From a virus: DNA of 24,826 nt. A program made the position numbers and the translations under genes. The stretch's first letter is position 1. The number at the start of each line of letters is the position of its first letter. The DNA lies in IMG/VR virus record IMGVR_UViG_3300047661_000002, positions 1 through 24,826 of that record; one strand, 5' to 3'. This document shows, one piece after another, positions 3,179-8,640 of the stretch. A model generated the notes under the pieces. It was not told the DNA's origin, did no database searches, and saw nothing but the letters and a program-made list of their open reading frames with translations.

Positions 3179-3465
3179 TGCGACTTGAAAAAACTTTGCA
3201 GGATGAATGCCTTGATTATCTAAATGCACGGCATATTTACAATGTCAATACACACGGTGATGCTTGGGAGCGTCGAGGTAGACCAGACATATATCTATGC
3301 TATTGCGGGCATTTCATCGGCTGTGAGCTAAAACGTGGGCTGGATAACCAGCCTACGGCTTTACAGCTTAAGCATCTTCGGGAAATTAGGGAAAGTGGGG
3401 GCATTGGCACATGGATAACGACGCTACTAGAACTGACAGACCTTCTAGGCTCTCTGGACCATTAA
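3178..3465 (+). CDS. VRR-NUC domain nuclease
   Basis: A small protein of 95 residues, the usual size for the single-domain phage VRR-NUC family of PD-(D/E)xK nucleases. The active-site set is visible: GRPDI at residues 34-38 (Asp37), then Glu50-Leu-Lys52 in CELKRG, and Gln63 in the following helix. VRR-NUC proteins act on branched or structured DNA such as Holliday junctions and flaps, and in phages they lie near the replicase genes as here. The start codon overlaps the previous stop (TAATG). Its last 55 bases overlap the next gene in another frame, which suggests coupled translation. Confidence 0.88.
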   Translation: MRLEKTLQDECLDYLNARHIYNVNTHGDAWERRGRPDIYLCYCGHFIGCELKRGLDNQPTALQLKHLREIRESGGIGTWITTLLELTDLLGSLDH

Positions 3466-5381
3466 ACAACCGCTTTTTGTATCTGCGTGAGGACAAAGCC
3501 CCGGTGTCGTGGGATATGTATGCTCTCGATGACACGGCCGGTTGTAAAACAGTCGGAGTTTTAATACCCGACCAATATGTAGTTGTTGATGTCGACAACA
3601 TGGAACAGGCAGAAAAACTCATGCGGCTCGTGATCGAGGAAAATATAAAATGTCAGATTATGCAGACGACACGTGGAAAGCATTTCTGGTTTACCTCGAC
3701 TGAAACGCTGAAAAACAGTACCAAGGTCATGACCGGCATCGGAATTCATGTCGACTATCGCTCATGGGGCAAACAGTCGCAAGTGTGTGTACGGATGAAC
3801 GGTGAGTGGCGGGAATGGCTCACGGAATACGAATGGGGAGAGCTTGACGCACTACCACGCTGGTTACGACCATTACTTCAATCCAAGTGGAAGTTTTACG
3901 AAATGGGCGAGGGCGATGGACGAAATCAGGCATTATTCGATTATCAGATTATGTTGTCGAAACGTGGGTATTCAAAGCAGGAAGCCTTTGACGTTCTACG
4001 GCTTATCAATACCTACATATTTAAAGAAACAATGCCGAATAGGGAGATCGACACAATCTGTCGCGATGAAGCATACCCAGACCCGGAAACAACCGTCTCT
4101 CAATTTGACCCGGATGCGCCGTGGTTTGGTCCAAAGGGTGGATTCTTACACAATATTATGGGTGACGAAATCCTAAAGGAAATGAATATTGTGCGCTATC
4201 ACCAGCAGTTTTATGTTTACGAGAACGGCTGCCACCGAGTCGGTGACAACGATGTGCCACATAAAATAGAGGTGCTTTTTCCAACGTCAACTATGAAACA
4301 GCGTGGAGAAGTTCTCGACTATATCCGCATTATGAGCCACCTCGAAAAGCCAACCCTTCATGAATATATTATTAATCAAAAAAATGGTCGATTGGATTTA
4401 AAAAAAGGAGAACGTATGTCACACACACCAGAAGCTCATGATTTTCAGCAAATTAATGCCTCTTATGACCCTACCGCTTACAGTGAACCACTTGAGAAAA
4501 TGCTCCGAAAAGTGTTTCAAAACGATCAGCAACTCTATGATTTGTTCGAGGAGATGATGGGTTATTGCCTCATTAAGAATTGCCGAATGCAGAAAATCTT
4601 TATATTTTTCGGCGACGGAAACAACGGTAAAAGTACACTCCTTCGCGTTATTTGTAATTTTATCGGCGACGGTAATTACTCAACTTTGTCTTTGCAGGAC
4701 TTAGAAAAGACCTTCCGACCTGCCGAACTTGAAAATAAGTTGGTCAATTTGGGTGACGATATTCCATCAACGACGATTAAAGATTCAAGTCTGTTAAAGA
4801 GCTTATCAACTGGCGAACGTGTTCTGGTCGAGCGCAAAAACAAGAACCCATTTATTCTTAAAAATTATGCAAAACTTATATTCACGACGAACAAAATGCC
4901 ACCAGTCAACGATAAATCCTTTGGATTTTATAGGCGTTTGGTTCTCATTCCTCTTGATGCAAAATTTTCTTCATCGGACCCCGATTTTGACCCAGACATT
5001 GAGGAAAAAGTTACATCTGACGAGGCAATGAGTTATTTATTAAATATGGCAATTCGAGGATTTAAACGCATGATGAAACACGGTTTCACGGAGTCAGACA
5101 AGGTAAAAAAGGCAGTAGAAACTTACAAACAAAAGAGTTCACACACGCTGACGTGGACCGCCGACAATGGAATTGATGAGGGTTATTTGCTTTTAAAAAG
5201 TACGCGTGAATTGTATTATGAATTCAAAAACTGGTGTGCTGATGAAGGTATTGAAAACGTTCCAAAGCAGCAAACGTTCACCAGCGAGCTTGAAAAACAG
5301 TTTAATTTTATGCTTTCGCTACAAAAGCGCGAAAAAGGAACGACGAATAGAGTTAAGTTTTTTCTGAAAATAAACGAATAA
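3411..5381 (+). CDS. Primase-polymerase/superfamily 3 helicase, P4/D5-like
   Basis: A 656-residue fusion that should prime and unwind DNA at the phage origin. The N-terminal part looks like an archaeo-eukaryotic primase-polymerase: the acidic pair in VVVDVDN (residues 57-63), RGKHFWF (88-94) and HVDYRS (113-118). A middle helical region starts around EGDGRNQALFDYQ (167-179), as in primase C-terminal domains. The C-terminal half is a D5-type superfamily 3 helicase with Walker A GDGNNGKST (401-409), Walker B-like VNLGDD (445-450) and sensor IFTTNK (490-495). Length and domain order match phage and plasmid primases of the P4 alpha type. The start lies inside the VRR-NUC gene. A repeat-rich non-coding region directly downstream could be its origin. 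Confidence 0.9.
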   Translation: MDNDATRTDRPSRLSGPLNNRFLYLREDKAPVSWDMYALDDTAGCKTVGVLIPDQYVVVDVDNMEQAEKLMRLVIEENIKCQIMQTTRGKHFWFTSTETLKNSTKVMTGIGIHVDYRSWGKQSQVCVRMNGEWREWLTEYEWGELDALPRWLRPLLQSKWKFYEMGEGDGRNQALFDYQIMLSKRGYSKQEAFDVLRLINTYIFKETMPNREIDTICRDEAYPDPETTVSQFDPDAPWFGPKGGFLHNIMGDEILKEMNIVRYHQQFYVYENGCHRVGDNDVPHKIEVLFPTSTMKQRGEVLDYIRIMSHLEKPTLHEYIINQKNGRLDLKKGERMSHTPEAHDFQQINASYDPTAYSEPLEKMLRKVFQNDQQLYDLFEEMMGYCLIKNCRMQKIFIFFGDGNNGKSTLLRVICNFIGDGNYSTLSLQDLEKTFRPAELENKLVNLGDDIPSTTIKDSSLLKSLSTGERVLVERKNKNPFILKNYAKLIFTTNKMPPVNDKSFGFYRRLVLIPLDAKFSSSDPDFDPDIEEKVTSDEAMSYLLNMAIRGFKRMMKHGFTESDKVKKAVETYKQKSSHTLTWTADNGIDEGYLLLKSTRELYYEFKNWCADEGIENVPKQQTFTSELEKQFNFMLSLQKREKGTTNRVKFFLKINE

Positions 5382-5388
5382 CCAAGAA

Positions 5389-5624
5389 TGACAACGTGAC
5401 AGAAACGGCAGCAAGCGTGCCAAAATGACAGTAAAGTGCCATAAGCCTGACGTCAAAAAAAGGCTAAGGTATGCGGTTTGTTATATAGTTGTCACGTTGT
5501 CACGCTTATTTGTCTTATGTTCTGTCTATAGAGATAATATATAAATATAAAGGGGGGAGTAAAAAAATAATAAATCATATAGAGAGAGAATAAAAAATGG
5601 GATGGTGACATTGTCAGTATGACA
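5389..5624 (+). repeat. Cluster of TGACA/TGTCA elements, candidate replication origin or operator
   Basis: The gap between the helicase and DUF4406 genes carries many copies of one pentamer in both orientations: TGACA at 5389, 5397, 5426, 5606 and 5620, TGTCA at 5490, 5498 and 5612. A perfect TGACGTCA palindrome is at 5448-5455. TGACAACGTGACA at 5389-5401 is the exact reverse complement of TGTCACGTTGTCA at 5490-5502, so each is a pair of half-sites eight bases apart. The element at 5606-5616 is a perfect palindrome, TGACA-T-TGTCA. Such spacing fits a protein-binding array: iterons of an origin or operators of a regulator. The sequence pattern is direct observation; the function is inferred. 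Confidence 0.7.
5510..5538 (+). promoter_or_regulatory. Probable vegetative promoter for the regulatory cassette
   Basis: A -35-like TTGTCT at 5510-5515 is separated by 17 bases from a -10-like GATAAT at 5533-5538, followed by AT-rich sequence. It lies between the TGTCA pair at 5490-5502 and the palindrome at 5606-5616, so a protein bound to those sites could control it. Transcription would start near 5545 and leave a ~105-base leader ahead of the DUF4406 gene. That leader holds an isolated G-rich stretch at 5551-5556 that has no start codon at a useful distance. Confidence 0.55.
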
Positions 5625-5649
5625 TAAAAATTGTGGAGGTAAATCTGAA

Positions 5650-5943
5650 ATGTCAGTGATATATATTGCGGGTCCAATAACCGGTGTGAAGCACTATCAG
5701 CGTAATTTCATAGCAGCAGAAATGAGATTAAAATTAGCTGGTTATACTGTTTTCAATCCAGCGAAACTTCCAAAAGGTCTTCCTTGGGAAGTATACATGC
5801 CAATATGTTACGCAATGATAGATGCTTGCGACATGGTTTACTTTCTCAAGGATTGGCATAAAAGTAAGGGTGCGTGTCTGGAATATGAACATGCAATGAA
5901 TCACAGCTTAGCTGTAAATTTCGAGGAGAAAACCCATGAATAA
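5650..5943 (+). CDS. DUF4406 protein, nucleoside 2-deoxyribosyltransferase-like
   Basis: A 97-residue protein that begins after a GGAGG site at 5635-5639. The start YIAGPITG (residues 5-12) and the later DACDMVYFLKDWHKSKGA (58-75) followed by acidic residues and HA match the layout of DUF4406, a family related to nucleoside 2-deoxyribosyltransferases. In those enzymes the GP(I/M)TG loop, the D..D segment and the S.GA..E segment form the nucleotide pocket. Small versions like this are common in Firmicute phages, but their substrate is not established. It heads the cassette that also encodes the HTH and late-regulator proteins. A role in nucleotide metabolism is inference from the fold. Confidence 0.82.
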   Translation: MSVIYIAGPITGVKHYQRNFIAAEMRLKLAGYTVFNPAKLPKGLPWEVYMPICYAMIDACDMVYFLKDWHKSKGACLEYEHAMNHSLAVNFEEKTHE

Positions 5944-6433
5944 TGAATTTAAAGTATTGTTTATACATACAGAACCGTGTTCCGTTTGCAAAGGCTCACA
6001 TGCCGAGTATCTCACTCGTCAGTGTTGCAGGAATTGTGAGTCTTTGCATAAGGCGATGATAAAACGTGGATTATTGATATTGCCGCATACAAGTGTGAAA
6101 GGTTCAAAAGTGATAACGGATATGGCATCGAGAATATCAGCTATGAAAGCAGCAGGGGCATCACTCAGGGAAATGTCAAATGCTACAGGTTTGGCGAAAG
6201 ACACCGTGAGCAGTTATATTTGCAAAGCCAATAAAGAGGCAGGAACAGGTTATGGACAGGCAAAACGCAGTAGTTACAAGTTGACTCCAGATCAGCAGCA
6301 GGAGATCATACAATTAACAGCGGCAGGTCAAACGGATTCTGCAATCGCCAGTAAAATAGGAGTTTGTGCAAAGACAGTTTCTAACGTCCTGAAACGGCAC
6401 GGTTTAGAACGCCATAAAGAGGTGCATGTATGA
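5936..6433 (+). CDS. Putative DNA-binding protein with N-terminal Cys cluster and two HTH motifs
   Basis: This 165-residue protein overlaps the previous gene by eight bases, with GAGGAG just ahead of ATG 5936. The first ~35 residues hold five cysteines (15, 18, 30, 31, 34) in a CxxC...CCxxC arrangement that could bind zinc. Two helix-turn-helix stretches follow: one around ISAMKAAGASLREMSNATG, the other around LTAAGQTDSAIASKIGV with KTVSNVLKRHG. The second resembles resolvase- or transposase-type HTH folds. No catalytic domain accompanies them, so a regulatory or replication-initiator role is more likely than recombination. It is a candidate binder of the upstream TGACA repeats, but nothing in the sequence proves that. 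I do not recognise a specific named family. Confidence 0.75.
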   Translation: MNNEFKVLFIHTEPCSVCKGSHAEYLTRQCCRNCESLHKAMIKRGLLILPHTSVKGSKVITDMASRISAMKAAGASLREMSNATGLAKDTVSSYICKANKEAGTGYGQAKRSSYKLTPDQQQEIIQLTAAGQTDSAIASKIGVCAKTVSNVLKRHGLERHKEVHV

Positions 6434-6928: not shown

Positions 6929-7318
6929 GTGATAAGAATTAAAGAGTTTGCAGAGTGGTTCTATAAGGGTAAAGCGTGGCGCAAGTGTCGCACCGGATAC
7001 TTCCAATCACAACACGGCATCTGCGAACGGTGTGGCGGCGCAGGGCGAATCGTACACCATAAGAAGTACATAACACCATCGAACATCAACAACCCAGCAG
7101 TGGCGCTGGATTGGGCAAATCTCGAACTACTCTGCGATGAATGTCACCAAAAGGAACACCAAAAGACGCGAAATACGGCTGAAACCGTAAAATTTGACTC
7201 AAACGGTGACCTTATAGCCCCCCCACCCATGAAAATCCATGAGGCCTCGCAGAACCACGTACCCCACATTCATATACCTCGATTTTCCCTTTTGAATAAA
7301 AAAGGAGACAAACTATGA
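6929..7318 (+). CDS. HNH endonuclease of the packaging module
   Basis: A 129-residue protein starting at GTG 6929 after AGGA; no ATG is available before the domain. The HNH fold is clear: zinc pairs Cys32-xx-Cys35 and Cys69-xx-Cys72, His43-His44 in IVHHKKYITP, Asn64, and His73/His77 in CDECHQKEH. HNH proteins next to terminases take part in DNA cleavage during packaging of HK97-type phages. The last ~35 residues are low in conserved pattern (Pro- and His-rich). Their DNA includes a C-run that may instead be part of a packaging site. The gene ends four bases into the next (ATGA overlap). Confidence 0.9.
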   Translation: MIRIKEFAEWFYKGKAWRKCRTGYFQSQHGICERCGGAGRIVHHKKYITPSNINNPAVALDWANLELLCDECHQKEHQKTRNTAETVKFDSNGDLIAPPPMKIHEASQNHVPHIHIPRFSLLNKKGDKL

Positions 7319-8640
7319 ACTTTCAAACACTAAAAACCTCAGACTTACAGCCATCCGACTACAATCCACGCAAAGATTTGACACCAGAAGATCGCGAATA
7401 CCAGAAAATTATGCGCAGCATTAAAGCATTTGGATATGTCGACCCTATAATCGTAAATTATGATATGACGGTCATCGGCGGCCACCAACGCCTCAAGGTT
7501 TTGAAAGACCTCGGCTACGAGGAAATCGAGTGTGTGGTTTTGGAGGTTGACAAAGATCAAGAGAAGGCACTCAATATCGCACTTAACAAAATAAGCGGCG
7601 AATGGGATACCGACAGACTGAAAGACTTGTTTGCAGACCTCGACACCGGAGCATTCGATGTGGAACTTACTGGCTTTGATTATGCGGAGATTGAAGCTCT
7701 CATGAATCAGACACCGGAACAGGAAGTGGTCGAGGACGACTTCAATATCGAAACAGCCGCCAAGGAAATAAAGCAGCCCATTACCCACAAGGGCGACATT
7801 TGGCAGTTAGGTCGCCACCGGCTGATATGCGGAGATAGCACCGATGCAGCCACCATCGCCAAACTCATGGGAGGCAAACAGGCTCGACTGATAGTTACAG
7901 ACCCACCGTATAACGTAAATATCGAAGGCAGCACAGGTCTGAAAATAAAGAACGACAATATGGGCGACAGCGCTTTTTATGAAATCCTGCTTAATGCACA
8001 TAAAAGAATGTTTGAATCAGCCGAACCCGGCTGCCCCATTTATGTATTTCATGCAGACACAGAAGGTTTAAATTTCCGTAAGGCATACATAGCCGCAGGC
8101 TTTAAATTATCCGAATGTCTTATATGGGTAAAGAACTCATTGGTTCTGGGGCATCAAGATTATCACTGGTCCCATGAGCCAATTTTGTATGGATGGCGTG
8201 AAGGTGCAGCCCACCATTGGTACGGCGAGCGAGATAAAGACACTGTGCTAGAAGACGCAATCAGCATTAGCAAACTCAAAAAGGATGAAATGGTGGCACT
8301 GCTCAAGGAACTTTTAAAAGGCCGCGAGAATACGACAATCATTCGTGAGGACAAGCCATCAAGGAACGACGTTCATCCCACGATGAAACCTTTGAAATTA
8401 ATAGGTACCCTTATAAAAAATTCAAGCAGAAACGGTGACATCGTTCTGGATTCCTTCGGTGGTAGTGGCAGTACCTTAATGGCGGCAGAACAGCTTGGAC
8501 GCACCTGCTATACAAGCGAATTCGACGAGATATATTGTGATGTGATTGTCAAAAGGTGGGAGGACTTCACCAATGACAAGGCCATGCTAATAGAGGGTGG
8601 TGAGAGCGATGCCGAGACAGCCGGTAACTGTAGCAAATAA
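7315..8640 (+). CDS. ParB/Srx-domain DNA methyltransferase (adenine-N6 or cytosine-N4)
   Basis: A 441-residue two-domain protein. Residues 1-~130 form a ParB/sulfiredoxin-like domain with NPRK (17-20) and VIGGHQRL (53-60). Residues ~155-440 form an amino-methyltransferase: DPPY motif at 196-199, then HPTMKP (354-359) and the SAM-binding FGGSGST (381-387). DPPY ahead of the SAM motif is the beta-class order. Such fusions are common in Firmicute phages and probably modify phage DNA, giving protection from restriction or marking DNA for packaging. A long insert (~300-350) separates the core and may help target recognition. It starts after AAAGGAG and its end overlaps the terminase small subunit gene, so it belongs to the packaging transcript. 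No partner restriction gene is seen. Confidence 0.92.
   Translation: MNFQTLKTSDLQPSDYNPRKDLTPEDREYQKIMRSIKAFGYVDPIIVNYDMTVIGGHQRLKVLKDLGYEEIECVVLEVDKDQEKALNIALNKISGEWDTDRLKDLFADLDTGAFDVELTGFDYAEIEALMNQTPEQEVVEDDFNIETAAKEIKQPITHKGDIWQLGRHRLICGDSTDAATIAKLMGGKQARLIVTDPPYNVNIEGSTGLKIKNDNMGDSAFYEILLNAHKRMFESAEPGCPIYVFHADTEGLNFRKAYIAAGFKLSECLIWVKNSLVLGHQDYHWSHEPILYGWREGAAHHWYGERDKDTVLEDAISISKLKKDEMVALLKELLKGRENTTIIREDKPSRNDVHPTMKPLKLIGTLIKNSSRNGDIVLDSFGGSGSTLMAAEQLGRTCYTSEFDEIYCDVIVKRWEDFTNDKAMLIEGGESDAETAGNCSK

Follow-up and report, generated by a model that had tools for sequence, protein, structure and literature searches.

The noncoding gap at 5382-5649 of the window, by which we mean the whole stretch of DNA analysed, a 24,826-base IMG/VR record of a tailed phage whose terminase resembles those of Bacillota phages, is very probably a replication origin whose iterons the neighbouring primase-helicase would read with its C-terminal domain. 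We put the probability of this reading, which is drawn from sequence comparison, at roughly 0.88. It is based on the enrichment of the repeats, their position and layout in most relatives, the covariation of iteron type with the C-terminal wing of the primase, the annotated origin of the Streptococcus thermophilus phage Sfi21, and the precedent of the SaPI and SCCmec Cch2 systems. The preliminary description had offered origin iterons bound by the initiator as one of two roles for the array, and its place and layout, the tie between iterons and wing, and the Sfi21 origin all argue for that role. An unexplained repeat cluster thus becomes a testable origin.

The repeat array

The features of the locus are as follows.

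3411-5381, plus strand: Prim-Pol and D5_N/DUF5906 primase-helicase, 656 residues, proposed iteron-binding initiator
5268-5378, plus strand: winged-helix-like C-terminus (residues ~620-656), putative iteron reader from the structural model and covariation with iteron type
5389-5401, plus strand: left iteron pair TGACAACGTGACA, 8-bp spacing
5418-5441, plus strand: left iterons TGCCA (5418), TGACA (5426) and TGCCA (5437)
5448-5455, no strand: TGACGTCA palindrome
5457-5480, plus strand: spacer with TATGCGG, resembling both flank spacers of relative L034
5490-5502, minus strand: inner-left iteron pair TGTCACGTTGTCA, in reverse orientation
5503-5605, no strand: AT-rich core, proposed unwinding element, 27% GC versus 45.8% for the window
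5606-5624, plus strand: right iteron cluster TGACA/TGTCA/TGACA

The gap measures 268 bp between the primase stop at 5381 and the start of the next gene at 5650, so the array does lie immediately behind the primase-helicase gene, as had been described. On recounting, eight copies of TGACA or TGTCA (starting at 5389, 5397, 5426, 5490, 5498, 5606, 5612 and 5620) and the TGACGTCA palindrome were all found where they had been reported within 5389-5624; a ninth copy, at 5651, is inside the next gene. The pentamer count that the preliminary description had proposed as a check shows enrichment confined to the gap: eight copies against a mean of 0.7 expected, a number reached by 0 of 2000 dinucleotide shuffles, while the remaining 24.6 kb of the window holds 72, about the expectation (whole window: 80 against 59.9 expected, sd 6.7). 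Nor did any of 1000 shuffles of the gap yield eight copies of any 5-mer with three or more letters (mean maximum 4.0). Only four of the eight sites are GTGACA, and the relatives described below have denser and less degenerate arrays.

The 8-bp spacing is common to the pairs 5389/5397, 5418/5426 and 5490/5498. We infer that the TGCCA elements at 5418 and 5437 are degenerate iteron copies, and the TGACGTCA palindrome is possibly another. The palindrome reported at 5606-5616 consists of two perfect arms around one centre base (TGACA-T-TGTCA). The 13-bp match is likewise exact, TGACAACGTGACA at 5389-5401 being the reverse complement of 5490-5502, and it extends to arms of 18 nt at 89% identity, 88 nt apart. 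Inverted pairs as long as 13 bp arose in 24 of 2000 shuffles, some of them probably in AT tracts, and on its own the pair is weaker evidence than the pentamer enrichment. It is best seen as two oppositely oriented iteron pairs of one origin and not as a special element.

A different kind of origin could be built from the same arms. In pRN1, a stem-loop of ~100 nt lies 3' of a Prim-Pol/SF3/winged-helix gene (PMC4234260), and 5384-5401 and 5490-5507 might similarly fold into a large stem-loop or cruciform recognised by its shape; the RNA fold of 5382-5649 has z = -3.7. This score does not discriminate, since any inverted iterons can pair. In two relatives (L046 and L023) the arms differ in iteron spacing, which makes the extended stem impossible, but the iterons and their orientation persist, and hairpins in the spacers are not significant (Stouffer z -1.6). 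We consider recognition by shape very unlikely indeed.

The primase-helicase

The protein encoded at 3411-5381 matches Prim-Pol, D5_N and DUF5906 in Pfam and the DNA primase family phrog_864 (1e-139). Its closest solved relative is the SaPI5 primase-helicase (7ola; sequence E 1.9e-61, fold E 3e-13). The predicted structure has a helix at residues 620-631 and strands at 633-635 and 650-653; overall the model is modest (pLDDT 64), and in it the C-terminal 40 residues (pLDDT 73-83) look like a winged helix.

By analogy with related systems, we suggest that the primase-helicase carries out DNA binding, loading, melting and priming. Its winged-helix-like C-terminus would bind the GTGACA-type iterons, helicase rings would load at the two clusters, 5389-5502 on the left and 5606-5624 on the right, and melt the AT-rich core between them, and the N-terminal Prim-Pol domain would then prime synthesis.

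Relatives and their arrays

The window region has no DNA-level match in the phage collection. At the protein level, scans of viral contigs and genomes recovered relatives at ~63% identity, together with more distant ones. The 63% relatives have a common gene order (YqaJ nuclease, small protein, VRR nuclease, primase, repeat-packed gap), and in those that share this synteny the gap behind the primase is roughly 250-400 bp long, with a lineage motif present 9-17 times where 0.2-0.8 would be expected; across all loci compared the counts are 4-17 against 0.04-0.8. The motif is GTGACA in the window and in L005, L006, L008, L010 and L014, GGGACA in L002, L004, L007, L019 and L030-L032, GTTACA in L034 and L036, TAGGACA in L046 and L047, TAAGACA in L023 and GTAACA in L022, with further motifs elsewhere. 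They have a common layout, in which outer repeats are followed by a spacer, a left and a right inner group enclose an AT-rich or alternating core, and more repeats usually come after the right group. This layout is found, with unrelated motifs, in elements from Staphylococcus, Paenibacillus, Enterococcus, Streptococcus and Lactococcus, and is also present in Lactococcus phi31, in streptococcal phages and satellites, and in a Loigolactobacillus plasmid. Comparison with related phages, another check that had been proposed, thus finds position and layout kept by most relatives with a motif specific to each lineage.

There are exceptions: the D5-type relatives L042, L043, L058, L066 and L068 have no such gap. 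In one 46% relative (L044, 4960-5240), no array lies right behind the primase, and AACAATT-like repeats occur in a noncoding stretch beyond a small interposed ORF. Searching genomes in the family of the Paenibacillus host returned only the known prophage, and 399 genomes of the host's class gave three more, more distant matches, of which the one examined (L071) carries GTAACAG repeats; primase scans with L007 and L034 as queries returned no new relatives.

The genes 3' of the array vary between relatives, and this bears on the other role proposed in the preliminary description, that of operators. A phage regulator, for example the HTH protein at 5936-6433, would bind TGACA and control the DUF4406, HTH and RinA-like genes and the late switch. 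The array is indeed upstream of regulator genes, and its sites flank a possible promoter at 5510-5538; the matches behind the promoter around which the array had been described as lying are weak (9/12). Within the loci examined in the relatives, with up to about 4 kb of flank, neither DUF4406 nor the HTH protein at 5936 has a match, yet the array stays with the primase, and the iteron type follows the primase C-terminus, as shown below. Because the two genes are absent from these loci, we regard operators for the late switch as very unlikely. An attenuator or terminator acting in the transcript between the primase and the late genes would account for the strong predicted fold. No Rfam family comes near its gathering score in the region, the sole terminator-like site is a weak one on the minus strand, and the short motifs face both ways and vary together with a protein domain, so that an RNA element is hardly credible.

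Iteron type and the C-terminal wing

We compared the body of the primase (residues 149-600) with its wing (the last 25 residues) in pairs whose bodies are at least 85% identical. With the recombinant L016 set aside, wing identity is 0.86-1.00 for pairs with the same motif and 0.45-0.80 for pairs with different motifs. The clearest pair is L002 and L006, whose bodies are identical (99.4% DNA identity over 1472 nt) and which abruptly cease to match over the last ~25 codons and the array, with different iteron sets. An assembly chimera in one contig may produce such a pattern, but it is repeated by L008/L031 and L010/L016 at about 95% body identity. In L016 the array (5990-6320) has a GGGACA left half with a matching primase C-terminus and a GTGACA right half, as if a crossover had occurred inside it. 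A tree of body DNA requires at least five changes of iteron type, with GTTACA treated as a third state, and a single GGGACA clade is rejected (AU p 1e-52). Since wing and array adjoin in the DNA, part of their co-segregation could be linkage.

Three of 648 ungapped columns separate GTGACA from GGGACA proteins, all within the last ten residues: 647 (Arg or Lys, respectively), 652 (Ile or Leu versus Val) and 655. In some of the GGGACA proteins, positions 652 and 655 coincide with the overlap of the first iteron with the coding end, which leaves 647 as the cleanest specificity candidate. From the alignment we therefore suggest residue 647, Arg in the window, as a candidate specificity position; the correlation comes from three pairs that are independent and well supported, a number too small for significance. 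A single-residue code at 632 (Gly) was also considered and dropped, as L016, L030, L031 and L032 do not fit it.

A second element in related origins

Many D5-type origins carry, in the spacers that flank the core, a quasi-palindrome close to AAAAmCGTTGATATATAAGGGnTTT. A copy stands to the left and another to the right of the AT core in L046 (4870 and 5021), L025 (4128 and 4272), L022 (5794 and 5952) and L074 (4545 and 4687). The two copies are oppositely oriented in L046, L047, L023 and L025, with the minus strand on the left and the plus strand on the right. A first, arm-based pattern gave a weak held-out result (Fisher 0.085). We then built a 24-bp profile by hand from streptococcal and Loigolactobacillus copies chosen by eye and tested it on other lineages. 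Measured against a null model that preserves dinucleotides only, it detects the element in independent lineages with a Fisher p of about 1e-9 overall and 0.014 in the clade of the window. The element is usually the best place in the whole locus and is unique or nearly so in most loci. The Sfi21 origin, which was outside the training set, has it twice, both best matches being on the plus strand. In the window, the spacer at 5457-5480 occupies the corresponding position, and the profile score is not above shuffles (p=0.66), with 61 better places elsewhere in the window. A literature search with fragments of the element found no relevant report among the papers listed.

Comparison with known origins

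The window has the Prim-Pol and D5/SF3 initiator, the noncoding gap directly 3' of the initiator gene and the short iterons to the left and right of an AT-rich core that mark SaPI/Sfi21-type origins. In the Sfi21 record, a 302-bp noncoding segment directly behind the D5-type primase gene is annotated as 'origin of replication, phage inhibitory sequence', and there too iterons flank an AT-rich core. The Sfi21 iterons (AGTTACT/AGTAACC) are unlike those of the window, its primase and helicase parts are separate ORFs and not a single protein, and the second element, present twice in Sfi21, is unrecognisable in the window. A near DNA search with the origin of phage 858 did not return the Sfi21 origin.

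SaPI Rep, to which the solved SaPI5 protein (PriRep1) belongs, is reported to use its C-terminal domain to read iterons that lie directly 3' of its gene (PMC7581432). A SaPI is a satellite island whereas the window is a tailed phage, and the comparison covers protein and layout. The putative origin of SCCmec Cch2 has a short 5-nt iteron (AAGTG) 3' of a helicase with a D5-related Primase_Cterm, and the C-terminal domain of Cch2 specifically binds its repeats in vitro (PMC7581432); it differs in having three iterons only and a separate CCPol-MP primase. The winged-helix domain of the P4 alpha protein, a multifunctional primase-helicase, binds the P4 origin repeats (PMC4234260). Its primase is of Toprim type, and the comparison covers the protein and its binding of repeats. 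In Vibrio PLE, the DNA-binding domain of RepA and the origin covary and swap as a module (PMC8263062), but the initiator is RepA_N (for which Pfam finds no match in the window's primase) and not Prim-Pol/D5, its DNA-binding domain is N-terminal, and the iterons are semi-palindromic and ~30 bp long.

An origin of this kind is thus already known from SaPI Rep/ori, SCCmec Cch2 and the Sfi21 ori. What is new is the window's membership, the natural swaps of wing plus iterons, and the second conserved element in other such origins. Identical helicase bodies with two wings and two iteron sets amount to a natural experiment for asking how initiator specificity can change without loss of function. Taken together, and at somewhat less than even odds, these results may mean that phages change origin specificity by exchanging or mutating a wing of ~25 residues and the adjacent array while the helicase is untouched; that very few wing residues set GTGACA versus GGGACA, with Arg647 (GTGACA) versus Lys647 (GGGACA) as the leading candidate; and that D5-type origins of Gram-positive phages have a second element flanking the AT core to left and right, which perhaps signals priming or strand loading. 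Extra copies of the Sfi21 origin (the PER element) block phage DNA accumulation and inhibit growth of the phage (PMC6356513), and an origin-targeting nuclease probably drove the swapping of PLE replicons (PMC8263062). We suggest from these two cases that iteron switching may be an escape from interference.

Other genes of the window

Two further reading frames were noted. One frame at 1-1650 matches a DNA polymerase family over residues 5-290 and, over residues 315-535, an Erf-like family of ssDNA annealing proteins, and is possibly a polymerase/Erf-like fusion. At 7315-8640, a ParB_N domain is fused to an N6/N4 DNA methyltransferase.
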